A stretch of 64,000 bases of DNA, taken from positions 1 through 64,000 of the forward strand of contig JABWCQ010000012.1 of NCBI GenBank assembly GCA_013360195.1. The letters are read 5' to 3'. The position numbers and the translations under genes are program-made. Of the stretch, positions 4,693-34,451 are shown piece after piece; within the stretch, counting starts at the first letter, position 1; each line of letters starts with the position of its first letter. Under the pieces are notes generated by a model. That model had not been told where the DNA came from. It saw only the letters and a program-made list of their open reading frames with translations, and ran no database searches. Source of the stretch: a bacterium (GTDB taxonomy: Bacteria; Electryoneota; RPQS01).

Positions 4693-5569
4693 GGCACCTC
4701 GCACACGTCGGTTCGACATTTGGTGTATCGTGACAGGACATGCAAGATTCAAGATCGAACTCTGCCGCTTCGCCGTGTGTGCCGCCGTTCGGTGTGACAA
4801 AGCCGGGGCGGAAGTGGTCGGCGGGCAGCACATTCATGTCACGGTGGCAGTCAATACAGAAGCTGCGCTGCTCGTGACAGGTTCCGCAACGGAAGTCGCT
4901 TAAATGCGCATCCTGACCGTGACTGTTCAGATAGTTGCGCGGATGCGGATTGATGACCGCATCGCCTTGATGGCAAGATTGACAGTCGAGTTTCGTGCCG
5001 CTGATGTGACACATCATACACTGAGCATCGTCGGCAGAGGCCGCAATGCCGTGACGCTGCGCCCACATGATATCGTGGTCAGCGGGAGTGAGTTTTTCGC
5101 CCGGAAGGTGACAGGTTTTGCACTCGCGGTTGACGGAGCGGTTGGTGTGACACTCCATGCAGTCGGCCATCTTCGGGAAATGACTCACGGGCTCATCGAG
5201 ATTAGCATGACAGGTATTGCATTCCAGTCCGGCTTTTTCGATGTGCCGCTGATGGCGGAAGACGGGGCTGTAGTCTCCGATGTACTTGAAGATGAAGCCC
5301 TCCCTTTGCTCACCCAAGGCAACGCCCTTGTTGGCGACGTCTTCAGGAGAGTGGCAATCGGCGCAAGCAGACCAGAGCGGAAGCAGATTGTCCGTGCCAG
5401 CATTACTCTTTTCGACTCCGGTATGACAGGCGATGCACTCCATATCGGCGTGCAGGGAATGTTTGAAGGCGGACGGAAGTCTGCCATCAGAGCCGACCAG
5501 AGCGAACTCGCCATCCGCGAAGGCCGAGGCGGTGAACGCGACGGTCAGTATGAGCAGAAGACGCATCAT
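4682..5569 (-). CDS. Periplasmic 11-heme c-type cytochrome (cytochrome c3-like)
   Basis: The 295-residue product carries a cleavable signal peptide (LLLILTVAFTASAFA) and eleven CxxCH motifs, from CIACH near residue 46 to CARCH at the C-terminus. The dense spacing and many additional His residues (for example HSLH, FRHQRH, HFRPG) are typical of bis-His c3/c7-type wires. The ATG at 5569 overlaps the TGA of the barrel gene upstream as ATGA. In porin-cytochrome complexes a periplasmic multiheme protein hands electrons to a cytochrome in or outside the barrel. This protein occupies that position between the barrel gene and a lipoprotein cytochrome. The role is inferred from context; the haem-binding motifs are directly visible. 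Confidence 0.85.
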   Translation of the reverse strand: MMRLLLILTVAFTASAFADGEFALVGSDGRLPSAFKHSLHADMECIACHTGVEKSNAGTDNLLPLWSACADCHSPEDVANKGVALGEQREGFIFKYIGDYSPVFRHQRHIEKAGLECNTCHANLDEPVSHFPKMADCMECHTNRSVNRECKTCHLPGEKLTPADHDIMWAQRHGIAASADDAQCMMCHISGTKLDCQSCHQGDAVINPHPRNYLNSHGQDAHLSDFRCGTCHEQRSFCIDCHRDMNVLPADHFRPGFVTPNGGTHGEAAEFDLESCMSCHDTPNVEPTCARCHAQ

Positions 5570-6801
5570 TGTTCACCCCTTACGGCTGAGCGGAAGTGAG
5601 TGACGAGCGAGAAGAGTGCGCGCCAGTCTTCGTTGTGGTACTGATTTTTCAAGTGCTCAATACGGCCGCCGAGATTTATCATGCGAGTGATTGACCAATC
5701 CAATCCGCCATAGATGACTTGTGCTTCGGTGTTGGGACGAATTTCACTGTTGGAGCCGCGAGAATAATCAAATCCGAGGCTGACCTCAAATTGCTTGATG
5801 TCATATCGAGTCTGACCGTAGAAGCCGTCCATGTCACCTTCGCCGGCGGAGAGCCAATGAGTATAACCGATCTCCCCTTTTTCGTCGCCGATGCCAGCCC
5901 GCACCTTATAGAGCATGTCTTCTTCGGTGAAAATCGTGTAGCCCATGCCGGTAAGATATACATCCTCGTCGAACTCCCAGAATGCGCCGAGGCGTGCGGA
6001 ATTGGTCTTGGACTCTTCCAAAAACGTGGCAAAGAAGGAGTCTTCGAAAATACGCGGAGTTTGAGTGCGCAGGTCGGCGGACAGCATGAGTTTTCCGGTG
6101 GTCTGCCAGTAGGCGGTAATCTGACCGGTTTCGATGGCTGACTGTTCGAGATTCATGTGCAGACGTGCGCGCATGGTCAAGTCCTTCAGGGACGTGCAGT
6201 GATAGTCAAGCCCGAGACCGTTGAACATCACATCGCCGTCTTTGCTAACATAGAAGTAAGACAAACCGATTTGCCGTTTCCCGAAGCGTGTGCGAACATT
6301 GAGTCCGCCTGTCCATCCGCCGTCGGGGTTTTCTTGATCAAGACTCAGTGATGAATTGAGTCGAGAACCGCCGAAAACACGGAGGTCGGTTTTGCGGTTA
6401 AACTTGTAGTTGCTCCACAATCCGAGCACGTTGCCGCGGCCGATTCCTTCGGTCACCCATTGCTGTCCCAAGCGAATATCCCACTTGGACGCTTCGGGTT
6501 TCCAGATGAGAACGGCGCGGTGTACCCGTGCTGTCCCAGAGCTGTTGGCATAACCGTTCTGATATTCTGCGAAACCGCGCAAAGTGCTTTCGAAGTTCCA
6601 GTCTCCGCCGCCGAATTTGTGAACATTCAGACTCAGCAAGGGAACGACTTGAACCCGGTCCACGGAGTCATCGCGAACATATGACCATACTCCGAAGCGG
6701 CCGGAGTAGTTCAAAGCAAACGCCGATTGAACTCCGGATACGACCAGAAAGAGGAGAATGGTCAGCAGGAATAGCGCCTGCCGTGACTTGAATTTTCGCA
6801 T
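5566..6801 (-). CDS. Outer-membrane beta-barrel protein of the porin-cytochrome-like cluster
   Basis: The 411-residue product has a signal peptide (LLTILLFLVVSGVQSAFA). It is followed by alternating amphipathic strands rich in Tyr, Trp and Phe (YSGRFGVWSYV, WNFESTLRGFAEY, IGLSYFYV), ending in strands such as LFSLVTHF. No CxxCH is present. Length and pattern suggest a barrel of roughly 16 or more strands. Its position between a lipoprotein cytochrome gene and a periplasmic cytochrome gene resembles the MtrB/OmbB component that lets cytochromes cross the outer membrane. I cannot show sequence homology to those families, and a generic porin remains possible. No clear Shine-Dalgarno sequence precedes ATG 6801. 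Confidence 0.7.
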   Translation of the reverse strand: MRKFKSRQALFLLTILLFLVVSGVQSAFALNYSGRFGVWSYVRDDSVDRVQVVPLLSLNVHKFGGGDWNFESTLRGFAEYQNGYANSSGTARVHRAVLIWKPEASKWDIRLGQQWVTEGIGRGNVLGLWSNYKFNRKTDLRVFGGSRLNSSLSLDQENPDGGWTGGLNVRTRFGKRQIGLSYFYVSKDGDVMFNGLGLDYHCTSLKDLTMRARLHMNLEQSAIETGQITAYWQTTGKLMLSADLRTQTPRIFEDSFFATFLEESKTNSARLGAFWEFDEDVYLTGMGYTIFTEEDMLYKVRAGIGDEKGEIGYTHWLSAGEGDMDGFYGQTRYDIKQFEVSLGFDYSRGSNSEIRPNTEAQVIYGGLDWSITRMINLGGRIEHLKNQYHNEDWRALFSLVTHFRSAVRGEQ

Positions 6802-6872
6802 GAGAGTGCGATTTTTAGATGGAGTTTCGCCATTGCAAAGAGAACTTCACAACGGCGAGACAGAAGGAATTT

Positions 6873-6901
6873 GCGGGGCGGACGAGAGACATCCGCCCCG
6901 C
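6873..6901 (-). terminator. GC-rich hairpin between cytochrome and barrel genes
   Basis: A perfect 10-bp stem (GCGGGGCGGA with TCCGCCCCGC) closes a 9-nt loop just downstream of the PKD cytochrome stop codon at 6915. It is not followed by a T-run on the minus strand, so it may be an mRNA-stabilising or processing hairpin within the operon rather than a full terminator. Confidence 0.4.
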
Positions 6902-6914
6902 TCTTGTTCAAGGC

Positions 6915-8624
6915 TTACTTACGGGAAGCCATTCTCCGCTGTTCCTGCAAGAGGGGCTGACCGGGAGTCAGGTAGTCAATTGCATTGTTCAGCAGTGAAA
7001 GCGCATAAGTGTAGTTGTGCACGCCCATCGAGCCTTCGTTATTCACGAAGAACCAGGCGTACGCGGCTTCGCGCTGCTCGCGGGTTGTTTCCGTCGCGGT
7101 GAAGAGCGGCTCGGTGCCGTCGTTCGGGAGCATGCTCAGAAGCTGATTCATCAGGTTCTGAATTTCGGTGCGGCGACCACGATAGTCGAAATCGTTGGGC
7201 GTGGCGTGGCACTGGTTGCAGGCCTGCACCTGCGGTGCGAAGCTGTGTCCATGATAATCGTGTCCCGGAGTATCACCCGGAATTGTGTGAACGTGACAGG
7301 TCACGCACATGTTCTCGAGCGAGGCTTCGCCGATTTCCACGTCGGGCTGGTGCACGGATTCACGATTATAGGTGTAGCCCGCAATTTCATAGGAGCCGCG
7401 ACCGATAGCCATGTCGGCTTGGCAGCTGCCGTGCGGTCCGGGGTGTGCGCTGCCGTTGTTGATTTGACCGATAATGTTGGCTTCGTTGCGGCGAGCGTGG
7501 TGGCACTGTGCACACTGCTGGCCTTTGCCAAAGCTCAGGTAGCCCTGCTCTTCATCGGGAATCCAGAGTGTGTCAGGATGATCGGGACCGGCATAGACGA
7601 TGGGGAAGGCATCCAGGCCGCGCAGATATGCGGGGTTGTTCTCTTCGTCGAGTGAGTGCACATCGTGGCAGGTCGCGCAAGAGACTTGATAGCCCTCAGC
7701 AGGAACCGCACGGTCCGCCCAATCCGGATCCCACTTCTTGATGAAACCTTCGGAGATGTGGCAGAAGTTGCAAGACGAGCGATTGAATTCCGTGTTGAAC
7801 TCTTCGATACCGCCGGCAACTTCGATGGCTTGTCCGTGGCCGGAAGTTTCGTACTCTTCATATTGAGAGTGGCAGCGGTTGCAGGTCTCACCGGTTACGA
7901 CAAGCTCAATGTCCGGTTCGTGCGAAGAGAAGTCCGGACCCATGGGGCCGTGGCAGGCTTCACATGTGACATTGCGGAGATTGACATTCGGGAAGTCATC
8001 GTAGCCCGCGTTGTCCACGCCGGGGGTGATGACGGTGCCGTCAAACGCGACGATGTCGTCCCAGCCGGTGGTGTGGCATTGCAAGCAATAGGGATTGTTT
8101 TCCGCACCTGAAGCCACGAGCGAAGCGTAGGCCTCGGCATGGTGCGTGGATTCCCACCCTTCGACCTTAGCCTGATGGCAGTGACTGCAGCGATTGGCGT
8201 TGTCACCGAGGAAGCTCGGGGTCACGCTGGGCACGTAGGTGTTGACACCGACGCGAACGATGCCGCTGACGCTGCCATCGTTGTCAGTGACAGTCACGGA
8301 AATTTCATAGAGGCCGATGCCGCTGGGCGGAGTGTAGTTCGTTACGGCCGCCGTTGGGCTGGAGAGCGTGCCGGAGGCCGCAGTCCACTGATAGGTCATG
8401 GGGTCGCCATTGGGGTCGTAGGCGCTGACAAAGAGCACCGTGCTCTCGCCTGTACCGACGCTATCGGGCGCGGCGACAATTGCGGTGATGATGGGCGGTG
8501 AATCCGGATTAAGTCCGGAGGGACCTGCGGGTCCCTGGTCTCCTTCGCAGCCGACAAATGCGAGCACGATAACCACCAGGCTTAGGAGAATGAACGTTGC
8601 TGGGTGTAGTCTCTTACGATTCAT
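6915..8624 (-). CDS. PKD-domain nine-heme c-type cytochrome lipoprotein
   Basis: The 569-residue form starts at ATG 8624, which has an AAAGGA ribosome site 8 nt upstream; an in-frame ATG at 8633 lacks one. The lipobox FVGC places lipidated Cys26 after the signal helix. Residues ~40-130 form a PKD/Ig-like domain (SVGTGESTVLFVSAYDPNGD ... YEISVTVTDNDGS). Nine CxxCH motifs follow (CSHCH, CLQCH, CEACH, CNRCH, CNFCH, CATCH, CAQCH, CVTCH, CNQCH). The C-terminus is helical and ends with a FFVNNEGSMGVHN segment. That segment recalls the helical tails of NrfA/octaheme-type cytochromes, but the catalytic architecture is not evident. A surface-exposed electron-transfer or oxidoreductase role is inferred from the lipid anchor and the neighbouring barrel gene. 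Confidence 0.8.
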   Translation of the reverse strand: MNRKRLHPATFILLSLVVIVLAFVGCEGDQGPAGPSGLNPDSPPIITAIVAAPDSVGTGESTVLFVSAYDPNGDPMTYQWTAASGTLSSPTAAVTNYTPPSGIGLYEISVTVTDNDGSVSGIVRVGVNTYVPSVTPSFLGDNANRCSHCHQAKVEGWESTHHAEAYASLVASGAENNPYCLQCHTTGWDDIVAFDGTVITPGVDNAGYDDFPNVNLRNVTCEACHGPMGPDFSSHEPDIELVVTGETCNRCHSQYEEYETSGHGQAIEVAGGIEEFNTEFNRSSCNFCHISEGFIKKWDPDWADRAVPAEGYQVSCATCHDVHSLDEENNPAYLRGLDAFPIVYAGPDHPDTLWIPDEEQGYLSFGKGQQCAQCHHARRNEANIIGQINNGSAHPGPHGSCQADMAIGRGSYEIAGYTYNRESVHQPDVEIGEASLENMCVTCHVHTIPGDTPGHDYHGHSFAPQVQACNQCHATPNDFDYRGRRTEIQNLMNQLLSMLPNDGTEPLFTATETTREQREAAYAWFFVNNEGSMGVHNYTYALSLLNNAIDYLTPGQPLLQEQRRMASRK

Positions 8625-9132
8625 AGTTTGCATCCTTTATCGGGTCCTCTTCCCGTTAATGGTTGCTTCGGATAGTCCGAAAAAAAAGCCCCTGCCAGCG
8701 TAGCTGTCAGGGGTTACATATAATGGATAATATTGGTCAGATTAAGCGGGCAGTGATGCGCCTTCGGCGTAATGGTCGAAGATCGGTTAAAATGAATAAG
8801 AATGTTCCGGAATTTCATTTGTCAACTCGACTGCGATAACTTGGGTCATTAGCAAGTTACTGCAGGTATTGTAAACAATTTTCATTCCAACGGCAAGGCT
8901 CAAACGGGTCTTGGTGACCCATCCACAAAATCCGTCAAAATCTCAAGTCATTAGTTTTTAATGATACAGACCAGTCTTGTCAGATTATGGATATGTGGAT
9001 AAGGAGGCGTAAATTTAGATATATTAGTCCGTTTCGCCGTCTTTGTTGGTGCAATTAAGTATAATGGGTGCTTATTTCGTTTTAATAGTGGTTATTTTGG
9101 GCTGTCTGACGGCTTAGATGGCCACAAATTGC
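8625..9132. other. Long leader/intergenic region
   Basis: No gene was recognised. On the minus strand, TTGACA (8825-8820), an 18-nt spacer and TCTTAT (8801-8796) could be a promoter. A small GCC-GAA-GGC hairpin lies near 8760-8771. A strong terminator hairpin at 8689-8713 then follows before the cytochrome start at 8624. Confidence 0.4.
8680..8713 (-). terminator. Rho-independent terminator or leader attenuator
   Basis: On the minus strand CCCCTG-x-CAGC pairs with GCTG-x-CAGGGG around a 3-nt loop and is followed by eight Ts. It sits only about 56 nt upstream of the PKD cytochrome start and about 420 nt beyond the preceding gene. It could end the NapC/HTH transcript or act as a conditional terminator in the cytochrome leader. 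Confidence 0.7.
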
Positions 9133-9438
9133 CTACTGACCGGCAGCGCGATGTTCACGAACGAAGCGATTGATTTCGTCGCGTTCGAAAAGAATCACTT
9201 TGCGTGACAAACGCACGCATTTGAGACGGTCTTCCCGGACCCATCGCATAATAGTAGTACGATGAACACGTCCGAGCATTTCTGCAGCTTCGGAGAGGGT
9301 TAGGAGCCCTTGTGGTGAATCACTGTTCACTCTTGGGGCCATTACCCCGTCCGCACGGGTTGTCTTCACAACGCGTGTTCCTACGGTGGTCATGGGGTCT
9401 CCTTTCGCGGCAGTTTTTTTGTCTTTTTTGGAGTTCAT
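9133..9438 (-). CDS. Small HTH DNA-binding protein (excisionase/MerR-like, HTH_17 type)
   Basis: The 101-residue product starts at ATG 9438, overlapping the cytochrome stop as ATGA with GGAG 8 nt upstream. An internal ATG at 9393 has an even stronger AAAGGAG site and would give 86 residues. The C-terminal half is a winged-HTH of the excisionase family (LTLSEAAEMLG ... RTTIMRWVREDRLKCVRLSRKVILFERDEINRFV). Such proteins bind DNA and are not always phage-linked; no integrase is nearby. Coupling to a NapC-type cytochrome suggests a local regulator of respiration genes, but this is inference. The Lys/Thr-rich N-terminal ~45 residues look disordered. Confidence 0.75.
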   Translation of the reverse strand: MNSKKDKKTAAKGDPMTTVGTRVVKTTRADGVMAPRVNSDSPQGLLTLSEAAEMLGRVHRTTIMRWVREDRLKCVRLSRKVILFERDEINRFVREHRAAGQ

Positions 9439-11372
9439 TGGGCAGCTCCGATGGCTTCGAACCACCGCTTAAACAGTTGAGGGTTATGGGCAGAAGCGCT
9501 GCCATCCTTTTGCAGCAGGTCTGCCAATTGTTGGTATTGCCTATGTTTCTCGCTGCCAGGTTTGAAATTGGCGAGCGCGTTATGGATAGCTTTTGTCATA
9601 TTACGGGCGTCCGTCTGCCACTGAGTCAAGGTATCGCCAAATGCATTGTCGTGACAGCCGATGCATAGCGGAGCAACATCGCGAGAGACTTTGTTACCGG
9701 TCGCTTCATGGCAATCGGTGCAGGCGAACTCCAAATCCGCCTTGAAGGACGGCGCGGCACCGGCGAATTGCGGCACGTTTCCATTGAACACGTTGAGTTG
9801 AGTCGTGTGACAGGACTCACACTTAGCCTTACTATCTACGAGGGGCTGATGGTGACAACTGTTACAGTCATTTTTCGACATCAGCAGTTTTCCATGCGAC
9901 TCGGCTGCGACGGAGTGACAGGTTTCGCATTTCCCGACGGTGGCATGCTTACGGTGATCAAAGGTGTTGCCCCCGTGCATCACCACGGCATCGCCGGCGG
10001 CCGGGTGGCAGGAATTGCAAGACTGCGCGCCAGCAACTTCGGTTCCAACAATGCGCGCGGAGAGCAGTTCAATCATCTCCGGATTGTGCAATGGATTGCC
10101 GCGCCTGTACATATCGAGAGCCAGCCGCATCGTATCGCGCAAAGCCGTATCAAGCGAGGCGGCACGTGATTCCAGTTCCTTGATGCGGCGGTAAATCGGT
10201 TCGTCCCAGCGAGTCCACAATTTGTCATAGCCGGCATCGTGACACGGAGTGCAGACAGGGTCGGGGTGATTGCCATCCGACGAATGAATATCGCCGACGT
10301 GACAGGATTCACACTCCATGCCGGCCTTGGCCATTGAGGACGGACTGAGCGGAATTCCGGGCAGGTCCCCACGCCACACTCTCTCGATTGCATCATCCGG
10401 CTTGCCATGACACTGACTGCACGTGCGCTCGGCGCTGGCGAATGCGACAGCTTCCTTGCCATGCCGAATCTGAATATGGCAGGCGGTACACTCGACTTTG
10501 CGGTCGGTCACGTGCTTTTGATGCACGAACTCGACGTCGTTGTAGCGCTCGATGTGCTGCAGTTCGGCATGGCAGGAATTGCAGCGTTCACGCGGGACGA
10601 ATCCATCGCCTGCAACCTCACTCGCGTGGCAACTCGAGCAGTCGGCTTTACGCGCGAGCATTTCCGTATGGTCAAAGCTGGTGTCGGCTGCCATGACTCC
10701 TGTCGGCGGATTGTGGCAGTTGGTGCACGTCGCCAAGTCAGTCGGGAATCCCAAGGTGTCCGGTTTGAAGTGACAGAGGAAGCAGGCAGACTCGTTGACG
10801 GAAATATGCTCACCCTGAACAATGTTGGAGTGGCATGAGGTGCAGCGCAGCTGTTTGCCGCGCCGGAGTTCCTCGATGTGCGGCTTGTGATCGAATTTCA
10901 CGCCGCGGAAGTCTTCAGTGCTTTCGAGCAAGCGGGTATCATGACAGCCTGAACGAAGACAGGATCTGTCTTCAATTTCAGCCCACGGCTTAGAACGCTT
11001 ATACACGCCCGTGAAGTAATTGGCGACCATGGAGACGGCCAGAAATTTCGAATGCACCGTTCCTTCGAAGCCGGGAGGAATGTGACACTCGATGCAGGTC
11101 ACATTGGCATGAGTGGAGGTTTCCCACGCTTCGAAATAGGGTTCCATGACATGACAGGACTTGCAAAAGGAGGGCTGCGACGTCACTTTGACAAAGAACA
11201 GCAGCGAAAATGCCACGACGATGGAAGAGGCAAAGAGCACCAGCCCGATACGACGGGGGCCAAATGCCATCAAGCGCCTCCAACCCACCCCAAACAGCCA
11301 GAACGGGAGTTTAATAGTCTCCCAACAGGCTGCGAAAAACTCGTTAGCGAGCCATCTGAATTTGTTCATCAT
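9435..11372 (-). CDS. NapC/NirT-anchored giant multiheme cytochrome (17 CxxCH plus one CX4CH)
   Basis: The 645-residue form starts at the tandem ATGs 11372/11369; a GTG at 11405 is possible. A cytoplasmic N-terminus precedes one transmembrane helix (LVLFASSIVVAFSLLFF). It is followed directly by CKSCHVMEP and CIECHIPPG, the signature of NapC/NrfH quinol dehydrogenases. CLRSGCH then gives a CX4CH site, and fifteen further canonical CxxCH motifs follow. A non-haem helical insert (RRIKELESRAASLDTALRD) lies around residues 390-420, and a helical tail ends the protein. Family knowledge suggests it draws electrons from the quinol pool and relays them across the periplasm. Compared with ~200-residue NapC proteins, this is a fusion of the anchor to a long haem wire. 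Confidence 0.85.
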   Translation of the reverse strand: MMNKFRWLANEFFAACWETIKLPFWLFGVGWRRLMAFGPRRIGLVLFASSIVVAFSLLFFVKVTSQPSFCKSCHVMEPYFEAWETSTHANVTCIECHIPPGFEGTVHSKFLAVSMVANYFTGVYKRSKPWAEIEDRSCLRSGCHDTRLLESTEDFRGVKFDHKPHIEELRRGKQLRCTSCHSNIVQGEHISVNESACFLCHFKPDTLGFPTDLATCTNCHNPPTGVMAADTSFDHTEMLARKADCSSCHASEVAGDGFVPRERCNSCHAELQHIERYNDVEFVHQKHVTDRKVECTACHIQIRHGKEAVAFASAERTCSQCHGKPDDAIERVWRGDLPGIPLSPSSMAKAGMECESCHVGDIHSSDGNHPDPVCTPCHDAGYDKLWTRWDEPIYRRIKELESRAASLDTALRDTMRLALDMYRRGNPLHNPEMIELLSARIVGTEVAGAQSCNSCHPAAGDAVVMHGGNTFDHRKHATVGKCETCHSVAAESHGKLLMSKNDCNSCHHQPLVDSKAKCESCHTTQLNVFNGNVPQFAGAAPSFKADLEFACTDCHEATGNKVSRDVAPLCIGCHDNAFGDTLTQWQTDARNMTKAIHNALANFKPGSEKHRQYQQLADLLQKDGSASAHNPQLFKRWFEAIGAAQ

Positions 11373-11564
11373 CGGATACTTCTTTCGGTGGAAGGGTATT
11401 GCCACCCCACGATCGACCCAAGTCCATCGTTGAAGCAGATCTGGGATCGGGGACGCTGTAATCGCGCACGTCGGTGAGTTTGGGAGTGTGGTCGCAACAG
11501 CGGCGAACAGACGCGCAAGACTGAAAGGACTAATAGGTTATGCGGCAGTCCCGATTCCAGTTAC

Positions 11565-25627: not shown

Positions 25628-25812
25628 AAATTCTGAAATGATTTTGATTTTCAGCGATAGACGCGATGTGAAGTTCGGTGGCTCTTACTGTTAGACCCGG
25701 AATGACGCAAAAGGTTGAAAACGAGGTGCGCAGGTGCGCAGAGGATGCGCATTTGGGGCATAATATAGGTAATAATTACAAAAGATAGGCCGGGCGTTAT
25801 TTACAGCAAAAA

Positions 25813-25838
25813 GGGCGACTATTCGTCGCCCTTTTTTT
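25813..25838. terminator. Bidirectional terminator ending the conduit operon
   Basis: GGGCGAC-TATTC-GTCGCCC is flanked by five As on one side and seven Ts on the other, so it works on either strand. On the minus strand it ends the barrel gene whose stop codon is at 25852. Confidence 0.85.
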
Positions 25839-25851
25839 CGTGGTTCAGTTC

Positions 25852-27432
25852 CTAAAAACGGTACCCAAGAAGCAGAGACAGAAATGAGATATCCCGGCCA
25901 TCCCCGAATCCCTGCTCAAACTCTGCTGCCGCCAAGAGCGGTTTTGAGAGCCGAGCGTCCAATCCAATCGAAACCCACTGTTGGGAGACGCGTTCAGCGG
26001 GTTCACCGATTTCATAGTCATTGGAGCCGAGTTCAAGTTGAGTGGTTAACCAGTGAGCAAGCTCCCGGGACAATGAAACCGCCGGCTGCGTACCTTTGCT
26101 GAAATCGCTGTCAAACCAGCGGACGCGGGCAAAAACTGCGAAACTTGACTTCAGGAGGTTGCTGCTGCCAATTCTGAACCAACCGCTGGAAGATGAAGAA
26201 AAGTCGCCATCTCCGCCGCGCTGCGCAATTCCGATATCGGCGCTGTAGGAATCGCCGAATCGAGTATCTACCCCAGCGCGTAAACCTTGCTGCAGAGAAC
26301 TTGCGAAAATGCTGTCGGGAATGCTGCGAGTTTCGGCAGTGTAGTAGTTTGTGCGATTGTCATAGCCGACAGAGACTCCCAGCAAGCGGGAAATGCGATA
26401 ATGCGCATCGAGCAAGAGTGAGGCTAACGTCAGACTTGAACCTTCGGCATCGTTCAACCAACCTCGATTCAAATTCAACTCAGTGCTTTCGAACAAGCGC
26501 AGCTTTGAACCGTAGCTGTAGTTTAATTGCTGGTAGAGGAATTCGCGGCTGATCTCTCCGTCGAGATAACGGCCTGCCAGGGACGCGGTGGCCTGAACGG
26601 CATGTACACCGCGACTGTGCCGCTCGAACGAAGCAAAAGCACCTAGTTTCGTGACATCGGATTGAATACGAGTGTTTTGCAGATCAGGTTCGATGCCGCC
26701 GAGAAGTCCGAATGTCCAGGTGCGATTGAGAGCATATTTCATGTACACCCCGTCGAGGTAGCCGAAGCCGCGGGTTTCCCGCAAGAGCAGCCGACCCAGT
26801 CCGGCGTGAAACGGCTTTTCCTTAGGTTCGTAGGCAAGCAGCGCTTCGTAAATCCGGTTTGAGGAAAATGATCTGTTATCGTCGGATCTATTCGTTCGGC
26901 GCAGGCGTAAATTGACCCGGGCGTTGACTTCAGAGCCGGATATCCGATTCAACGATGCCCGCATGCCAAACGTCGGCTCGGTGTAATCATATGCAGTCAG
27001 CTCGCGGTCGTCCTGCAGAGCATAACCGACGTTCACACGGCCGGAAAGCTGATTGGCGCGACCGGTTCGCGACGGCTGCACACTTGGTTCCGCAGGGTCA
27101 GAGGACAACGGAGTCTCCGCAGGCAATTCCAGAACGCCGGGTTCGAGCACGACTTTTTTCGTAAGAATCATGGCAGAATCACCCACTGCAACCACGGAAG
27201 CTGCATCGGTCAAGGCGCAAGAAGAAGATTTGTCAGAGACAAAATCGACGGTTAGAAGAATCCACTCTTTGCCTGTGCGAATGATTTGAACGGAATCCCC
27301 GACGGTGACGCCCGCATCGCGACCGGCAGCGAGATAGACTGCAGTGTTCGAAACGTATTGAACGGCAGTCCGCAACTGAGCGGAACAGAGTGAAGCGGCG
27401 AGCAGCAAGAGTGAAAGTGCGGCGCTTTTCAT
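25852..27432 (-). CDS. Outer-membrane beta-barrel of the multiheme conduit operon
   Basis: The 526-residue product has a signal peptide (LSLLLLAASLCSAQ), then a ~90-residue SH3-like periplasmic segment (YLAAGRDAGVTVGDSVQIIRTG). A long series of alternating strands rich in Tyr, Leu and Arg follows, ending in FLSLLLGYRF, a typical terminal-Phe barrel signal. ATG 27432 overlaps the 31-heme cytochrome stop as TGATG, so the two are co-translated. It may be the pore that lets haem chains reach the cell exterior; it contains no CxxCH itself. I cannot tie it to a named porin family. The N-terminal GxDAGVxxGD domain also occurs in outer-membrane proteins of other FCB bacteria. Confidence 0.75.
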   Translation of the reverse strand: MKSAALSLLLLAASLCSAQLRTAVQYVSNTAVYLAAGRDAGVTVGDSVQIIRTGKEWILLTVDFVSDKSSSCALTDAASVVAVGDSAMILTKKVVLEPGVLELPAETPLSSDPAEPSVQPSRTGRANQLSGRVNVGYALQDDRELTAYDYTEPTFGMRASLNRISGSEVNARVNLRLRRTNRSDDNRSFSSNRIYEALLAYEPKEKPFHAGLGRLLLRETRGFGYLDGVYMKYALNRTWTFGLLGGIEPDLQNTRIQSDVTKLGAFASFERHSRGVHAVQATASLAGRYLDGEISREFLYQQLNYSYGSKLRLFESTELNLNRGWLNDAEGSSLTLASLLLDAHYRISRLLGVSVGYDNRTNYYTAETRSIPDSIFASSLQQGLRAGVDTRFGDSYSADIGIAQRGGDGDFSSSSSGWFRIGSSNLLKSSFAVFARVRWFDSDFSKGTQPAVSLSRELAHWLTTQLELGSNDYEIGEPAERVSQQWVSIGLDARLSKPLLAAAEFEQGFGDGRDISFLSLLLGYRF

Positions 27433-29828
27433 CAGTTTTTCACTCCCGTGCGTTCAGGCTTCACTTCCTTGTGATTCCGTTTGCGAACATTGGGGCCTTC
27501 GTTCCCGTCGGGATGACAGCTATAGCATGACGTTGGCGTGTAGGTGTAGCCAGAAACGTCTTCGTGCTCGTCGTCCACGTCGCCCTGGTTGCTATGCTCA
27601 TGGCAGTCGATGCAGCTGAAGGCCGCAAAGTTGCCTTGTGTCGTGTGGCATTCGCTGCAAAGATTCCACTCATCGCTGTGACGGCCGGAGTAGATTGGGA
27701 AATGCTGTTGGTCGTGATTGAAATTGGAGTTCCAATTGGACGTCGTGTGGCAATCCAGACACTCTTGCGGATAGCCTTCGTTATGATCCGGATTGTTCGC
27801 GTTGTTAAAGTCGGTTTGATGACAGAACCAGCAATCCGTTGGTGTGTTCTCAAACTGGCCATTGGTATGACAGCTCAAACAATTCACAGACACGTGCGCT
27901 CCGGTTAACGGGAAGTCGGTGTTGCTGTGATTGAAGCCGCTGTCCCAGTCATTCGTATTATGACACTGCAGGCAATCATGGGGGAAATTGTTTTCGAGAT
28001 GATCGTCGGCGTCATTGTAGTCCTGTTCGTGGCAAGACCAGCAATCCGTGGGCGTGCCGTCATAGACACCGCCGACATGGCAGTCGAGGCAATTCGTCTG
28101 CACGTGCGCACCGGTTAACGGGAAGTCCGTGTTATTGTGATTGAACGTCGCTTGTTCCCAATCGACTGTGTTGTGGCACACCGCACAGTCGTGCGGGAAA
28201 TTGTTCTGGACGTGATCCGATTGAGCATTATACTCCTCCTGATGGCAGGACCAGCAATCCGCCGGAGTACCGTCGTAGACACCGCCGATGTGGCAATCGA
28301 GGCAATTCGTCTGCACGTGCGCACCGGTTAGCGGGAAGTCCGTGTTATTGTGATCGAACGTCGCCTGTTCCCAATCGACCGTGTTGTGGCACACCGCACA
28401 GTCGTGCGGGAAATTGGAGGCAACATGGTTCGGGTCGGTCGTTGCATTATATTCCTCCTGATGACAGGACCAGCAATCCGCCGGCGTGCCGTCATAGACA
28501 CCGCCGATGTGGCAGTCGAGGCAATTCGTCTGCACGTGCGCACCGGTTAGCGGGAAACTTGTCAGGTTGTGATCAAACAGAGCGTCATTCCAGTTGTCCG
28601 TCGAGTGACAAACTTCACAATTCTGCGGAAAATTGGAAGCAACATGGTTCGGGTCGGTCGTTGCATTATAGTCCTCCTGATGGCAAGACCAGCAATCCGC
28701 CGGAGTTCCTGAGAATTGACCACCAACGTGACACTCCAAACAATTCACTTCAATGTGCCGGCCCGTGAGCGGAAATGCTGTGAGATGGTGGTTGTCAAAA
28801 TCAGCAGGACGCCAGGATTCCGTCGAGTGACATTGCTCACACGATGAACCAAAAGCAGCGGCGTCGTGAACAGGATTTGTCGCACCGTCATAGTCCGCTT
28901 GATGACAGTCGGCACAAGCCGTAGCGGTACCTGTATACTGACCTCCGACATGGCACTGTGCGCAATCGGTCAGGATGTGCGCCCCAGTCAGCGGAAATGC
29001 AGTCAGATTGTGATTGTCGAAAGCCGCGGGCCGCCACGAGTTGATGGTGTGGCATGTTTGGCATTCCTGTGGAAAGGCCCCGGCCTCGTGTGTCGGATTC
29101 TGAGCATTCGTGTAATCGGCCGAGTGACATTCCGCGCAAGCGGTCGAGGTGTTCACGTATCCCGCGGAGTGACACGCCTGACAATCGTTCAACGCATGAC
29201 CGCCGGTTAATGGAAACGTCTCCGAGTGAACAAACTGCGGGCCTTTCCAGGAAGAGGCACTCACACTGTGACACTCAGTGCAGTTTTGTGAGAATCCGGC
29301 GTCAGTATGATCCGGCGTTGTTGTAGAAGCAAAGTCCTCCGCATGGCAGCCAATGCACCGCGTAACCAAGTTCACGTACTGTCCTGCAGAGTGACAGCTC
29401 TGGCAATCCAGCGAAGCATGCACACCAACCAACGGAAAACGGGTGGCATCGTGCATCCTGCGGAAGTTTACTTCATCAACCCACTGTCCGGGAGTGTGGC
29501 ACTGGCCGCAGTTGCTCGTGAACTGGCCGCGATGTATGTCGGTGTGGCAGTCGACACACTGGGTTGGCGCTTCGACAAAAACCAGCGATGTGTGGCAATC
29601 AATACACTTCACACCCTTGTGTTTGCCGACAAGAGGAAACGACGTCATCGTTTCATGCGAGAAACCGCCGTCCTGCTTTAATTGCAGCCAATTGTCAGTG
29701 GTGTGGCAAAGCTGACAATCCAGGTTGAATTTTCCATGCGGGGATTCAATGGCCGCAAAAGCAACTGAAGTCAAAGACAACAGGGCGGGAAGGAGAAGGA
29801 GTGAGAATCGCGCGAGTTGGCAGTTCAT
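27432..29828 (-). CDS. 31-heme c-type cytochrome built of tandem three-heme repeats
   Basis: The 798-residue product starts at ATG 29828, overlapping the 20-heme gene as ATGA. After a signal peptide (LLLLPALLSLTSVAFA) it carries 31 CxxCH motifs. From about residue 130 it is a chain of units of 70-74 residues. Each unit starts FPLTGxH, has CxDCH about 8 residues on, CWSCH or CxxCH about 15 further, and a third CxxCH followed by a W-x-F-x-H segment. The conserved His in GxH and FxH are candidate distal haem ligands. The C-terminus is charged (RKRNHKEVKPERTG). It is predicted to be periplasmic or extracellular; with three haems per ~7.5 kDa it would form an extended wire. Count and repeats are directly seen; the wire function is inferred. 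Confidence 0.9.
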   Translation of the reverse strand: MNCQLARFSLLLLPALLSLTSVAFAAIESPHGKFNLDCQLCHTTDNWLQLKQDGGFSHETMTSFPLVGKHKGVKCIDCHTSLVFVEAPTQCVDCHTDIHRGQFTSNCGQCHTPGQWVDEVNFRRMHDATRFPLVGVHASLDCQSCHSAGQYVNLVTRCIGCHAEDFASTTTPDHTDAGFSQNCTECHSVSASSWKGPQFVHSETFPLTGGHALNDCQACHSAGYVNTSTACAECHSADYTNAQNPTHEAGAFPQECQTCHTINSWRPAAFDNHNLTAFPLTGAHILTDCAQCHVGGQYTGTATACADCHQADYDGATNPVHDAAAFGSSCEQCHSTESWRPADFDNHHLTAFPLTGRHIEVNCLECHVGGQFSGTPADCWSCHQEDYNATTDPNHVASNFPQNCEVCHSTDNWNDALFDHNLTSFPLTGAHVQTNCLDCHIGGVYDGTPADCWSCHQEEYNATTDPNHVASNFPHDCAVCHNTVDWEQATFDHNNTDFPLTGAHVQTNCLDCHIGGVYDGTPADCWSCHQEEYNAQSDHVQNNFPHDCAVCHNTVDWEQATFNHNNTDFPLTGAHVQTNCLDCHVGGVYDGTPTDCWSCHEQDYNDADDHLENNFPHDCLQCHNTNDWDSGFNHSNTDFPLTGAHVSVNCLSCHTNGQFENTPTDCWFCHQTDFNNANNPDHNEGYPQECLDCHTTSNWNSNFNHDQQHFPIYSGRHSDEWNLCSECHTTQGNFAAFSCIDCHEHSNQGDVDDEHEDVSGYTYTPTSCYSCHPDGNEGPNVRKRNHKEVKPERTGVKN
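27891..29420 (-). repeat. In-gene tandem repeats (period 210-222 bp)
   Basis: The His codon of the FPLTGxH motif recurs at 27894, 28104, 28317, 28536, 28755, 28977, 29196 and 29418, giving periods of 210, 213, 219, 219, 222, 219 and 222 bp. Units starting at 28101 and 28314 differ at only 4 of about 104 positions over their first half, indicating recent duplication or homogenisation. All length changes are multiples of three. Confidence 0.9.
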
Positions 29829-31513
29829 GGTCGTTCGAATGAAGCTCCGCCGTGGCAATCCTTGCAGGCGGATGGGAGAGGGCGATAGAGGACAAAGGTG
29901 CCGTCAGCATCAGTTTGCGGTTTGTGGCACAAATTGCATGCGACCTGCTGATGGGCGCCGTCCAGCGGCCACTTGGAGTCGCGGTTGTGATCAAAGACAA
30001 GAGATTTCCATGCATCCGGGGTGTGACAACGGCTGCACTTGACTTTCGCTTCCGCAGTATAGTCAAGAACAAACTGATCACGGTGCGGATCCTTGTGGCA
30101 AAGTTCGCATTCCCGCGCCAGCGGGGCCATACGAATCATCTCTTCAGGCGTGCCCAGATTCTCGCGGGCATGACAGGACATGCATTCCGTTTGATCATGC
30201 TTTCCGATAAGCGGGAAACCGGTCGTTGAGTGGTCAAATGTTATATTGTGCCAGCTTTCCACATTGTGGCAGAACTCGCAGCCGTTACCGGTCATGTACT
30301 TGTCGAGCTGACCTCGATGAACATCCCGATGGCATCCTTTGCAGGTCTGATCTTCAAATACAAACTTGGCGTATGCACCATTGCGGTCGGTCAGCGAAGG
30401 GGTGTGACAAGTGATACACGGAATCGCCAAGTGACTGCCTTGAAGCGGGAATTTGCTTTGCGCGTGCTGCTCAATCCCATAGCGGGCGGGCAGGAAACCG
30501 TCTACGGTGTGGCACGACTCGCAGGCGCCGCCGTCAGTGCGTGAGGAGAATTGTCCTCGGTGCGTGTCCAGGTGACAGTCTTTGCAGGCAGCATGCGCGA
30601 CCGGTTCAGTCATTCGACCAGAAGTATGACACTTGACGCACTCCAGGCCAATGTGCCTGCCAGTGAGCGGAAAGCCGGTTTTGTTGTGGTCAAAGTCCTT
30701 TGCCATTTGCGCCACTGCAAAGCTCTCCGTCGTGTGACATCCGCTGCAATTGACACCAAACTTACCTTCGTGGACGTCGTTGTGACAGGATTTGCAGTTT
30801 GCGAAATCGACTCCTTGATAGACCGAACGCTCCAGAGGACGCACGGGATCCGCAATCAACGGAGCGGTACTCTCCGGAGATGATTCCGACTTGTGACACT
30901 TCGCGCAGGCCACGTCCCTGTGTTTTCCGGTGAGGGGATATCTGGATTTGTCGTGCGAGAATTGCGGTGCGGGAGTCCACTTGTCGTAGCCATGGCAGGA
31001 GGCACAATCATTGGTCAGTTGTTCTCCATGCTCATCGGCATGACAGGAGATGCACGGCTGCGACAGTCCGAGAAAACTGCGCGCTCTGTCACTTGTCGAA
31101 TCAAAGGCCGCCGCATCGGTTTGAAATGCAGTTGTATGGCACTTGGCACACTCCAGTTTGGCGTGTGCGCCCAATAGCTGATAACCGGTCCTGGAATGAT
31201 CGAACTTCTCCTTGCCCTCTTTCCAATAGACAAGATTGAAGTCACGCCCGAAGTGCTCAGCGTGGCACTTGGCGCAGCGTTCACGCTTTACTTCCGCACT
31301 CGAGTGATAGCCCCGGTTTTCCTCGATGCGGCGGGCGACGGCCTTATGACATGCGAGGCACTTGGCAGCCGTCACTTCATTGCGAAGTTCGTGACATTGA
31401 GTGCAGTTGTTCAGACCTTCAAGCGCGGCATGGTATTTTGAGAGGTCGCCGGGCGAGAGTTGCGCAAACGAATTTGTTATGACTAAGATTACGAATAAGA
31501 GAGGCCAGATCAT
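29825..31513 (-). CDS. 20-heme periplasmic c-type cytochrome
   Basis: The 562-residue product starts at ATG 31513, five bases after the TPR gene stop; the longer frame overlaps that gene and was rejected. A signal peptide (IWPLLFVILVITNSFAQ) is followed by 20 CxxCH motifs. Repeats of the form FDHxxTGFPLTGxHxxxxCxxCH and CxxCHxDxHxGQF are visible, of the same family as in the neighbouring 31-heme protein but more diverged. The DxHxGQ His residues are further candidate haem ligands. The protein probably bridges the periplasm between the membrane cytochrome b and the 31-heme protein; this is inferred from gene order. Confidence 0.9.
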   Translation of the reverse strand: MIWPLLFVILVITNSFAQLSPGDLSKYHAALEGLNNCTQCHELRNEVTAAKCLACHKAVARRIEENRGYHSSAEVKRERCAKCHAEHFGRDFNLVYWKEGKEKFDHSRTGYQLLGAHAKLECAKCHTTAFQTDAAAFDSTSDRARSFLGLSQPCISCHADEHGEQLTNDCASCHGYDKWTPAPQFSHDKSRYPLTGKHRDVACAKCHKSESSPESTAPLIADPVRPLERSVYQGVDFANCKSCHNDVHEGKFGVNCSGCHTTESFAVAQMAKDFDHNKTGFPLTGRHIGLECVKCHTSGRMTEPVAHAACKDCHLDTHRGQFSSRTDGGACESCHTVDGFLPARYGIEQHAQSKFPLQGSHLAIPCITCHTPSLTDRNGAYAKFVFEDQTCKGCHRDVHRGQLDKYMTGNGCEFCHNVESWHNITFDHSTTGFPLIGKHDQTECMSCHARENLGTPEEMIRMAPLARECELCHKDPHRDQFVLDYTAEAKVKCSRCHTPDAWKSLVFDHNRDSKWPLDGAHQQVACNLCHKPQTDADGTFVLYRPLPSACKDCHGGASFERP

Positions 31514-31518
31514 ATGAT

Positions 31519-32109
31519 TTAAGGATGGCCGCCGGGTTTTAGTTTGGGGATTGCCGCCTTGGCATAAAGTGCGAGAGTGTCTTGCGGATGCAGGGATATC
31601 AGTTCGTTCCAATGCCGACGCGCGGAATCATGGTCACCTCGATTTGCCTCAATAGCTCCGAGATTATAAAGTGCTCCCGCATGACCAGGATGATCCTTAA
31701 GTAAAGCATTCAGTTCGCTGATGGCCTCGTCCGAGCGGCCGAGGGCGGCGAATGCCCGGCTGATATCCAAGCGCACCAGCCATCCGTCGGCGGTCGTATC
31801 ATCTTTCAGGAAGATCCGGTAAAATTCAATTGCTTTTTCATACTGCCCGTCCTCGAAGTAGAGATTTGCAAGTTCGAGTGCGACCGGGCCGTGACCAGGG
31901 GCGGTTTTCCACATTTCCTCCATTCGCTCAATCGGAGACATTGCAGGTGACTGTTCACTCTCCCTTTGCATTGTTTCAAAGGACGGTTCACCACCGGGCT
32001 GGGGGGCGAAGTAGATCCACAGAAAAATTGCCGGAACCAGTATCAGCGCGATTGCAAAGGCGATGCGACTGGATTTGCTTGTTTGACCGCTGTTCTTGAA
32101 ATTCGCCAT
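31519..32109 (-). CDS. Membrane-anchored TPR protein (NrfG/CcmH-like)
   Basis: The 196-residue product has an N-terminal transmembrane helix (IAFAIALILVPAIFLWIYF) and at least three TPR units (GPVALELANLYFEDGQYEKAIEFY, VRLDISRAFAALGRSDEAISEL, GALYNLGAIEANRGDHDSARRHW). NrfG and CycH/CcmI use such domains to present apocytochromes to haem lyase. Placement directly before two genes with 51 CxxCH motifs fits a maturation-assistance role, although a general scaffold function is possible. ATG 32109 lies 3 nt beyond the flavoprotein stop. Confidence 0.8.
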   Translation of the reverse strand: MANFKNSGQTSKSSRIAFAIALILVPAIFLWIYFAPQPGGEPSFETMQRESEQSPAMSPIERMEEMWKTAPGHGPVALELANLYFEDGQYEKAIEFYRIFLKDDTTADGWLVRLDISRAFAALGRSDEAISELNALLKDHPGHAGALYNLGAIEANRGDHDSARRHWNELISLHPQDTLALYAKAAIPKLKPGGHP

Positions 32110-32112
32110 TTG

Positions 32113-33423
32113 TCAGACTTGACCAAACTTGCGTTCGAATTCGATGCCGACGCCCTTCAGGAATTCGGTCGGTAACTCACCGCCAATCATAACGAAAACC
32201 TGATCGTTTGCAAGTGTTATCGCGGTTCCCTGCTGGTCAATGGTAACTTTGTCCGGTTCTATTCTCGTTACATTTGAGTTCAAGAGCATAGTGACTTTGC
32301 CTTCTTCAACTGCAGATTCGAGCCGCGTGCGATTGCCTTCCTTTATTCGGAAGATTTTGTCACCCCGGTAGGAAAGATGGACCGTATTGCCGGGCTGTTG
32401 AGACAGTGAGAGCGCCGCCTCAACTGCGCTGTCTCCACCTCCGACGACGAGGATTTTCTTGTGATGATATTTTTGCGGGTCAAGGAGTCGATATGTAACT
32501 TTCTCGCTTTTCTCGCCCGGGCAGCCAATTTTGCGCGGGGTTCCCCGCCGACCAATCGCAAGCAGTACTTTGCGAGTCTTATATTCCGCCTTTGAGGTCA
32601 CGACGCGATAAATGTGACCTTCACGCTTGATATCGCTTACCTTCTCGCCAACCTTGATTTCGAGATTGTGATTCTGAACTACCGTGGTAAGCAGCTCAAG
32701 CAATGGTTCCTTTTCGACTTCTTTCAGCTTCACCGGCCCATGCAACGGCAACTCCATCGGTTGAACCATGACAAGTTTCTGGCGCGGGTATGTGTATATT
32801 GTTCCGCCCAAATCTTCCTGGTCCACAGTAACAAATCTCAGTCCCTCCTTCTTCGCCTGGAGCGAGGCCGATATGCCTGCAGGTCCGGCACCTACAATAA
32901 CCAAGTCGAGAGCTTCGCCTGATTTATCGTCCTTGACCTGCTGTGCCACGGATTCGACGGCCTGCCGTCCCTGTGAGACCGCGTTACGAATAAGTCCCAT
33001 GCCGCCCAATTCCCCTGCAATGAAGATACCAGGCACGTTCGTTTCAAAGTTTCCTTTGACGTGCGGGATGTCCACTCCGCGTTTCTCAGTCCCAAAAACG
33101 AGTGTTATCGCATCGACCGGACAAGCGGCCTGACATTGACCGTGTCCAATACACCGCGCAGGATTCACCAGAGCGGCTTTCCCATTGATAAGCTGAAGGA
33201 TCCCCTTTTCAGGGCAGGCCTTGGTGCAGGAACCTGAGCCAATGCAGGAATTGGGGTCAATCACCGGATGCAACGATACCGGCTGGTCAAGTCCCGCCAG
33301 AGTTGAGACTTCCAAAGTCTTGGCGGCTTCAGCACTCTTGCTTCGTTCCCGCAAGACGTAGAGGACGGGCAACCCGACTACAAGCAGACCTGTGACAACA
33401 TAAATCAGGGTTTCCAGGCTCAT
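32113..33423 (-). CDS. Membrane-anchored FeS flavoprotein oxidoreductase (thioredoxin-reductase fold, NAD(P)H-binding)
   Basis: The 436-residue product starts at ATG 33423, one base past the cytochrome b stop. Residues ~5-25 form a membrane helix. Residues 60-101 resemble a 2[4Fe-4S] ferredoxin, but each half lacks the second Cys: C60-IGSGS-C66-TKA-C70 and C91-IGHGQ-C97-QAA-C101. FAD binding is shown by VIVGAGPAGIS (~175) and NAD(P)H binding by ILVVGGGDSAVEAA. The segment PGIFIAGELGGMGLIRNAVSQG lies between the FeS and FAD modules. No redox CxxC of thioredoxin reductase is present. It probably passes electrons between NAD(P)H or ferredoxin and the cytochrome b encoded just upstream. Confidence 0.85.
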   Translation of the reverse strand: MSLETLIYVVTGLLVVGLPVLYVLRERSKSAEAAKTLEVSTLAGLDQPVSLHPVIDPNSCIGSGSCTKACPEKGILQLINGKAALVNPARCIGHGQCQAACPVDAITLVFGTEKRGVDIPHVKGNFETNVPGIFIAGELGGMGLIRNAVSQGRQAVESVAQQVKDDKSGEALDLVIVGAGPAGISASLQAKKEGLRFVTVDQEDLGGTIYTYPRQKLVMVQPMELPLHGPVKLKEVEKEPLLELLTTVVQNHNLEIKVGEKVSDIKREGHIYRVVTSKAEYKTRKVLLAIGRRGTPRKIGCPGEKSEKVTYRLLDPQKYHHKKILVVGGGDSAVEAALSLSQQPGNTVHLSYRGDKIFRIKEGNRTRLESAVEEGKVTMLLNSNVTRIEPDKVTIDQQGTAITLANDQVFVMIGGELPTEFLKGVGIEFERKFGQV

Positions 33424-33424
33424 G

Positions 33425-34285
33425 TCAGAATATCCAAGTGTAGCCGAGAAAGATCGCCACTGCCACATGAACGACCATAATGACCAGCATGATTATAGCA
33501 AAGGGCTTGTGGAACACATGCCAGTGATGGAGGAGCTTTCGCGCATGGCCGAGAAACGCAACACGACGTTCAAGCAATGCGCGGCGCCTGGCGAGTCTCA
33601 CAAGCCGCTTGGCGTCACCGGATGAAAGTCCAGCATCCGTTTGCAACTGTCTTTTCAGCCGTCGATATCGAATTGTCGCCGACAAGTCCCGCTTCAACCA
33701 TGTCAGCAATCCACCGCTAACCTGCGAATTCCATTTGAGGAACGAATCCAGAATGCTCAGCGCCACCGCATTGCCGCTCGCCTCCGAGGATAGTTGTCGC
33801 CGATAATGCTCCTCGAGCTCCTGTAGTTCCGCAGAAGACAGTTCGTCTCCTGACAGGCTGCGCGGAATCTGGACATATATATACCGACCAAGGACTCCAC
33901 TTAAAGCAACTGCCATCATGGACCAAAAGGACACGGCAACAATGCCGCCGAACTTAAAGGTCGTATGGAAAATCACCAGAACTGGTCCGGTAATCCCCAT
34001 CCAGATATGGTAGTTCAGCCAGTAACGGATGTCTCCCCACCCTTGCTGCATGAAGCGCAACCGTTTCCGAGCAGAGTACAGCAGGAGAATCAACATCAGC
34101 GCGCTTCCGACAATCCCAGCGCCTTGCCCAATTAGACCGGAGGGCTTCCATTTCTCGTGCAATTCGTGGTGTGGACGGTCTTGCAAGTCCAACGCATAAT
34201 ACTCGAAACCGTAGCCAGCCAAATATAACGTGGCGGCGACGGTTAAACTATAGAGAAGAATGAGGCTTAGTTTGTGGATGCTCAA
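33425..34285 (-). CDS. Di-heme b-type membrane cytochrome subunit
   Basis: The 286-residue product has about five transmembrane helices. His93 and His107 in one helix, and His259 and His273 in another, are each 14 residues apart, the usual spacing for two stacked b haems in ferric-reductase or cytochrome b561-type proteins. A hydrophilic, Lys/Arg-rich cytoplasmic loop (~145-250) separates them. The TTG at 34285 is the only usable start that keeps the first helix; no clear ribosome site is seen. As the first gene of the conduit operon it is a plausible inner-membrane entry point, exchanging electrons with the flavoprotein or the quinone pool. Confidence 0.8.
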   Translation of the reverse strand: MSIHKLSLILLYSLTVAATLYLAGYGFEYYALDLQDRPHHELHEKWKPSGLIGQGAGIVGSALMLILLLYSARKRLRFMQQGWGDIRYWLNYHIWMGITGPVLVIFHTTFKFGGIVAVSFWSMMAVALSGVLGRYIYVQIPRSLSGDELSSAELQELEEHYRRQLSSEASGNAVALSILDSFLKWNSQVSGGLLTWLKRDLSATIRYRRLKRQLQTDAGLSSGDAKRLVRLARRRALLERRVAFLGHARKLLHHWHVFHKPFAIIMLVIMVVHVAVAIFLGYTWIF

Positions 34286-34420: not shown

Positions 34421-34451
34421 AAAAAAAAGCCCCCAGGTGGGTCCTGGGGGC
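34421..34451 (-). terminator. Terminator after the YceI gene
   Basis: GCCCCCAGG-TGGGT-CCTGGGGGC forms a perfect 9-bp stem, followed on the minus strand by eight Ts. It separates the cupredoxin/YceI unit from the conduit operon. Confidence 0.9.

Follow-up and report, generated by a model that had tools for sequence, protein, structure and literature searches.

A six-gene operon of an uncultured Electryoneota bacterium, found on the minus strand of the 64,000-nucleotide stretch of DNA analyzed here (the window), is, to judge from comparison with related genomes, most likely an orthologue of PCC3 and would encode an envelope-spanning wire of the PCC3 kind. One of its genes encodes a predicted cytoplasmic NAD(P)H-type flavoprotein that stands outside the published definition of PCC3, and genome comparison shows that this protein accompanies PCC3 in four bacterial groups. 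We assign a probability of roughly 0.55 to the reading that the operon encodes a PCC3-type trans-envelope conduit with a two-part NAD(P)H-dependent inner-membrane module, through which electrons would by default flow outward.

The host genome is a MAG of 3.2 Mb in 46 contigs from the phylum Candidatus Electryoneota, with relatives that include Candidatus Electryonea clarkiae. All six open reading frames are present and run from position 34285 to 25852 in the order cytochrome b, flavoprotein, TPR protein, 20-haem cytochrome, 31-haem cytochrome and barrel (Table 1). Three gene starts were moved to sites backed by homologues, and the coordinates and junctions given here use these starts. The initial annotation had described a six-gene operon with junctions of at most 5 bp, a strong terminator at its end and 51 CxxCH motifs in two adjacent genes. 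All of this held: recomputed spacing ranged from -4 to +5 bp, the terminator was borne out by its fold, and exactly 20 and 31 motifs were counted in the two cytochrome genes, with none in the other four. The other CxxCH-containing ORFs of the window comprise four genuine cytochromes at 3.7-11.5 kb and one antisense ORF with a single motif, and given so few of them the concentration of 51 motifs in two neighboring genes is beyond chance. Since terminators are found on both sides, the six genes are delimited as one transcription unit. The G+C content of the operon (0.54) matches that of the window (0.52).

Table 1. Features of the operon and of a second cytochrome cluster in the window
Feature	Position	Strand	Length	Basis or remarks
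Di-b-haem inner-membrane cytochrome b, PCC3 IMP orthologue	33425..34285	minus	286 aa	Motifs and homology
Membrane-anchored Fe-S flavoprotein	32113..33423	minus	436 aa	Pfam Fer4 and Pyr_redox_3
TPR protein with N-terminal TM anchor, accessory	31519..32109	minus	196 aa	Pfam TPR; weak CcmH/CycH TPR match
20-haem cytochrome, predicted periplasmic, PCC3 periplasmic MHC orthologue	29825..31513	minus	562 aa	20 CxxCH
31-haem cytochrome, presumed extracellular/terminal MHC	27432..29828	minus	798 aa	31 CxxCH; 25.8 aa per haem
Outer-membrane beta-barrel with small N-terminal domain, PCC3 porin homologue	25852..27432	minus	526 aa	Signal-like N-terminus
Junctions in operon order				+1, +3, +5, -4, -1 bp; starts with homologue support
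Intrinsic terminator	25808..25836	minus		12-bp stem, 5-nt loop; -19.9 kcal/mol; z = -5.9 against shuffles
Terminator of upstream YceI-domain gene	34429..34451	minus		9-bp stem and T-run; upstream limit of the unit
17-haem NapC/NrfH-like MHC	9435-11405	minus		Second cytochrome cluster
Barrel-like protein	5566-6801	minus	411 aa	Second cytochrome cluster

A second minus-strand cytochrome cluster of the window (3715-11405) encodes, in addition to the two proteins listed in Table 1, a 9-haem PKD-containing MHC, an 11-haem MHC and an 8-haem MHC. Judged by its gene content, it resembles a candidate conduit of the same genome that is separate and linked to quinol.

Four components make up PCC3 as defined in 2017 (He et al., 2017, PMC5566968): a porin of the barrel type; an extracellular MHC with a median of 34 haems; a periplasmic MHC with a median of 21 haems; and an inner-membrane protein (IMP). 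The IMP is about 300 aa long and has five TM helices, an SGXXG motif and two copies of WX3HX13H. At that time the system was known from the Alpha-, Beta- and Gammaproteobacteria. The cytochrome b of the window agrees with the IMP in length and has all of the motifs: W89/H93-X13-H107, SGXXG at 129-133 and W255/H259-X13-H273 were invariant in the 17 sequences compared, and the hydrophobic segments in its hydropathy profile fit five TM helices. It matches the proteobacterial PCC3 cytochromes b with an E value of about 1e-50. The match to PF01794 was weak (1e-4) and, at 22.6 bits against a cut-off of 28, below the family threshold; having both HX13H pairs, the protein may work like a PF01794 ferric reductase/NOX. 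A search for this cytochrome b in viral contigs found none.

The 20-haem protein corresponds to the periplasmic MHC of PCC3 (about 21 haems) column by column, its location being predicted. When 46 periplasmic proteins were aligned, the Electryoneota haem motifs shared columns with the proteobacterial ones; the proteobacterial 21-haem proteins carry one additional C-terminal haem and the 24-haem proteins have internal insertions. Among 15 full-length homologues, 14 of them from Electryoneota, all 20 CxxCH motifs and exactly 20 non-motif histidines are invariant, which is the number that full bis-histidine coordination of 20 haems requires; the specific assignment of ligands to haems is one that we infer. 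The barrel is likewise related to the proteobacterial PCC3 porins, as shown by a profile-profile match with a probability of 97.4% (E 1.2e-11, 324 columns). The 31-haem gene has the position of the extracellular MHC of PCC3, although its repeats hamper a clean orthology comparison and the location of the product is a prediction only. These tandem repeats (27891-28706) form units of 213-219 bp, equivalent to 71-73 aa, that are 83-84% matching. They are a likely source of the variation in haem number among relatives of this protein, which spans 14-77 across all relatives and 16-46 in typical Electryoneota clusters.

Homologous clusters recur and retain both cytochrome b and barrel. Besides the window, Electryoneota have seven clusters that are complete on one contig, seven that are truncated where the contig ends, and a further cluster, L041. 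A complete cluster consists of cytochrome b, flavoprotein, 20-haem cytochrome, variable MHC and barrel, and wherever the contig permits the barrel adjoins the variable MHC. L041 encodes a 60-haem protein of 1549 aa (L041:5892-10541) whose N-terminus matches the 20-haem cytochrome and is followed by more haems, and which is probably a fusion of both wire cytochromes. The PCC3 loci in our sample of 369 gammaproteobacterial genomes comprise cytochrome b, a cytochrome with 21 (18-24) haems, a second with 15-77 haems, and a barrel. The TPR gene occurs in the window and in three other Electryoneota clusters and nowhere else among the genomes examined, so that this protein, which the initial annotation had counted as a conduit component, does not belong to the core.

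We conclude that the operon is most likely PCC3, because it combines the IMP motifs, collinear haems, the barrel profile match and a large variable MHC. The gene order, which had been thought to differ from known layouts, is that of a system described in Proteobacteria in 2017. The two findings named beforehand as fatal to a conduit, a barrel that is an unrelated transporter and homologous operons lacking barrel or cytochrome b, were looked for; the barrel is a homologue of PCC3 porins and the homologous clusters keep both genes. A complete conduit from inner to outer membrane, as originally proposed, is well supported by comparative genomics, even though extracellular electron transfer is still a putative function of PCC3 in the literature, which counts against this reading.

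The flavoprotein consists of one N-terminal TM helix, a dicluster ferredoxin domain and a YpdA/TrxR-type FAD/NAD(P)H domain. Its closest match in the PDB is YpdA (7a7b, 1.8e-32). Like YpdA bacillithiol disulfide reductase and thioredoxin reductase it has an FAD- and NADPH-binding domain, and the glycine motifs for binding of FAD and NAD(P)H are kept. In contrast to these enzymes, it has gained the TM helix and the ferredoxin domain, and the GPC motif of YpdA has become GPA: position 182 is alanine in 18 of 20 homologues and cysteine in none. The protein lacks the catalytic cysteine of disulfide reductases of the YpdA/thioredoxin reductase type, A182 standing in its place. The ferredoxin domain (residues 60-101) contains six invariant cysteines, and an invariant histidine, His94 (20/20 homologues), stands at the second cysteine of the second cluster motif; the matching site of the first cluster motif is occupied by Ser, Thr, Cys or other residues. 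The pattern of six cysteines plus His94 suggests unusual Fe-S clusters, which may be [3Fe-4S] or His-ligated.

The association of the flavoprotein with PCC3 was assessed in the 369 gammaproteobacterial genomes, in which loci were found with a profile of the window cytochrome b and strong cytochrome b matches were used for the count. Each of the 41 genomes with a PCC3 cytochrome b also had the flavoprotein, against only 2 of the 328 that lacked this cytochrome (Fisher 1.7e-52). Its gene lies no more than 3 kb from that of cytochrome b in 37 of 46 loci and is divergent in 36 of these, and five genomes with two cytochromes b have two flavoproteins each. In one of the two flavoprotein-only genomes (G240), the gene adjoins a PCC3-like barrel and an MHC at a contig end; in another genome (G148), cytochrome b and flavoprotein are on separate contigs, and the flavoprotein gene neighbors those of an MHC and of a PCC3-like protein of barrel size, again at a contig end. 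Both are split assemblies. The second flavoprotein-only case (G160) is a 3.5-kb fragment, and in an apparent exception (G063) the flavoprotein is encoded elsewhere in the genome. In several gammaproteobacterial PCC3 loci, the flavoprotein is followed by a protein with Sel1/ankyrin repeats that is about 660-690 aa long (L095:11736-13778, L099:11574-13562 and L106:5543-7528).

The pairing extends to other phyla. Two independent searches of 39 Electryoneota genomes, with the flavoprotein and with cytochrome b, matched the same 16. Cytochrome b was present in 14 of 192 Bdellovibrionota genomes, where the flavoprotein companion recurs, and in 26 of 133 genomes of a fourth phylum with the same companions; several gene orders were seen across both of these phyla. 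Pairwise distances of cytochrome b, flavoprotein and 20-haem protein correlate overall (Mantel p 0.001) and in most groups. Since such a correlation partly reflects shared genome descent, it serves as supporting evidence only, and the weak correlation between cytochrome b and flavoprotein in the sampled Bdellovibrionota (p 0.075) counts against our preferred reading. What can be read directly from these genomes is which genes they contain, that these are homologous to PCC3, that haem and ligand positions are conserved and that flavoprotein and cytochrome b occur together.

The flavoprotein is absent from the description of PCC3 in the papers covered by this survey, and a search of the literature accessible to it found no paper joining PCC3, flavoprotein and multihaem cytochrome. 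A divergent neighbor is easily overlooked when clusters are read as operons. In the published model, which draws on bc1 and hydrogenase cytochrome b as analogues, the cytochrome b is quinone-active and tied to the quinone pool (PMC5566968), and the flavoprotein could then be a side entry, a regulator or a repair reductase. The 17-haem NapC/NrfH-like protein in the window, which indicates that the host also has quinol-type cytochromes, is in keeping with such a link. However, the flavoprotein co-occurs as tightly as the core components do (41/41 genomes; 16/16 in Electryoneota), something not required of a side protein that the cell could do without, and we regard exchange with the quinone pool as unlikely.

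In the NAD(P)H-dependent conduit that we prefer, cytoplasmic NAD(P)H would reduce the FAD of the anchored flavoprotein, and electrons would pass from there to its two Fe-S clusters and on to the two stacked b haems of cytochrome b. These would deliver them to the bis-His haems of the 20-haem periplasmic wire and, by way of the outer-membrane barrel, to the repeat-built 31-haem surface cytochrome. The inner module would resemble a split NADPH oxidase/ferric reductase, in which a flavin dehydrogenase in the cytosol supplies electrons to an FRD-like membrane protein with two haems. Cofactor loading, the individual electron transfers, the cytosolic partner NAD(P)H, localisation and direction are all features that we infer. 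NAD(P)H is favored as the electron source because of the conservation of the flavoprotein. Outward flow is favored because nicotinamide would be the low-potential end of the chain and electrons would exit down the membrane potential; by default, reductant would be disposed of on minerals, on partner cells or on some other acceptor outside the cell.

The same conduit could also run inward: electrons taken from Fe(II), from solids or from other cells would enter at the surface cytochrome and reach either a terminal oxidase or the flavoprotein, which would pass them to NAD(P)+ or a different carrier in the cytosol. PCC3 was found in iron oxidisers (PMC5566968), and one PCC3 inner-membrane gene of Sideroxydans strain CL21 was upregulated during iron oxidation according to the literature. 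Moreover, the host genome encodes two haem-copper oxidases and the organism may be capable of aerobic respiration, so electron uptake is conceivable too, a point against an outward conduit. On the other hand, reduction of NAD(P)+ with electrons at the level of Fe(II) would be strongly uphill against the membrane potential, both PCC3 clusters of Sideroxydans ES-1 are reported in the literature to be downregulated on Fe(II), and a dedicated Fe(II)-oxidising role of PCC3 in this strain is without support from transcript and proteome papers. Inward flow appears distinctly improbable to us.

Another possibility is that the outer membrane is not crossed at all, that the cytochromes reduce or store electrons within the periplasm and that the barrel is a substrate pore for a soluble acceptor. 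The barrel domain indeed looks small, with about 395 residues and possibly 16-22 strands by a loose count of hydropathy alternation and weak models. Its width may not suffice for a cytochrome, which counts against a conduit. Furthermore, a profile of the barrel had no match at E<=10 among all PDB sequences, leaving it without a solved-structure counterpart. Yet all complete clusters link the barrel to both MHCs, and the haem number of the second MHC climbs to 77, which suggests a reach outside the cell. We consider a purely periplasmic system very unlikely.

The trans-envelope conduit is closest to the PCC3 clusters of Sideroxydans lithotrophicus ES-1 (Slit_0867-0870 and Slit_1446-1449), with which it shares, in one cluster, the di-haem IMP motifs, a periplasmic MHC of about 20 haems, a larger variable MHC and a homologous barrel. 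It differs in host phylum, in the presence of a TPR gene, in a shorter barrel protein without SPOR/TPR N-terminus, in a periplasmic MHC with 20 instead of 21 haems (one fewer at the C-terminus), and in the flavoprotein gene, which is located inside the operon rather than as the usual divergent neighbor. PCC4 (He et al., 2017) also combines a di-haem IMP and redox genes with MHCs and a porin, but lacks the large extracellular MHC, has three periplasmic MHCs as published and uses another IMP family. A related cytochrome b is encoded at two gammaproteobacterial loci, L110 (7280-12301) and L111, together with a flavoprotein of 810 aa that has Fe-S and cyclic-nucleotide-binding domains and with two 10-haem proteins, one of which bears an FHA domain; from these genes, the loci possibly represent PCC4.

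MtrCAB, MtoAB and PioAB follow the same principle of periplasmic MHC, barrel and surface MHC but, unlike the window operon, employ decahaem cytochromes and a CymA-type quinol dehydrogenase. Despite weak DmsE/MtrA-like repeat similarity, the 20-haem protein was rejected as an MtrA-family decahaem cytochrome on its haem number and its TIGR03508 score of 51 bits against a cut-off of 192. The barrel was rejected as a member of the MtrB/PioB family on the negative PDB comparison and on comparisons with Pfam and NCBIfam, which gave no barrel-family match. The 2026 Methylobacter porin-cytochrome system is of the MtrAB kind and unlike the operon described here. With NADPH oxidases and ferric reductases (FRD, PF01794) the inner module shares a cytosolic NAD(P)H-flavin domain that would feed a di-haem membrane cytochrome; in contrast to these, the part of the dehydrogenase falls to an Fe-S flavoprotein that is separate, anchored and of YpdA/TrxR fold, and the acceptor would be a cytochrome c wire.

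We tentatively extend this to PCC3 across bacteria, at somewhat less than even odds: PCC3 might be a five-component trans-envelope NAD(P)H oxidase in which the Fe-S flavoprotein and the di-haem cytochrome b draw electrons straight from the nicotinamide pool of the cytoplasm and bypass quinones, with a 20/21-haem periplasmic wire and a surface cytochrome grown by duplication of repeats of ~72 residues. Such repeat units offer a simple route by which a surface wire could lengthen or shorten between species. PCC3 has repeatedly been discussed as a candidate pathway for iron oxidation or extracellular electron transfer, and its published drawing stops at the quinone pool. A nearly exceptionless flavoprotein partner is a concrete alternative to the quinone link and changes a testable point, which can be examined in cultured hosts such as Sideroxydans, Leptothrix and methylotrophs. 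PCC3-type conduits reach beyond the Proteobacteria into Electryoneota, Bdellovibrionota and another phylum, and this wider range matters for the annotation of extracellular electron transfer in uncultured lineages.
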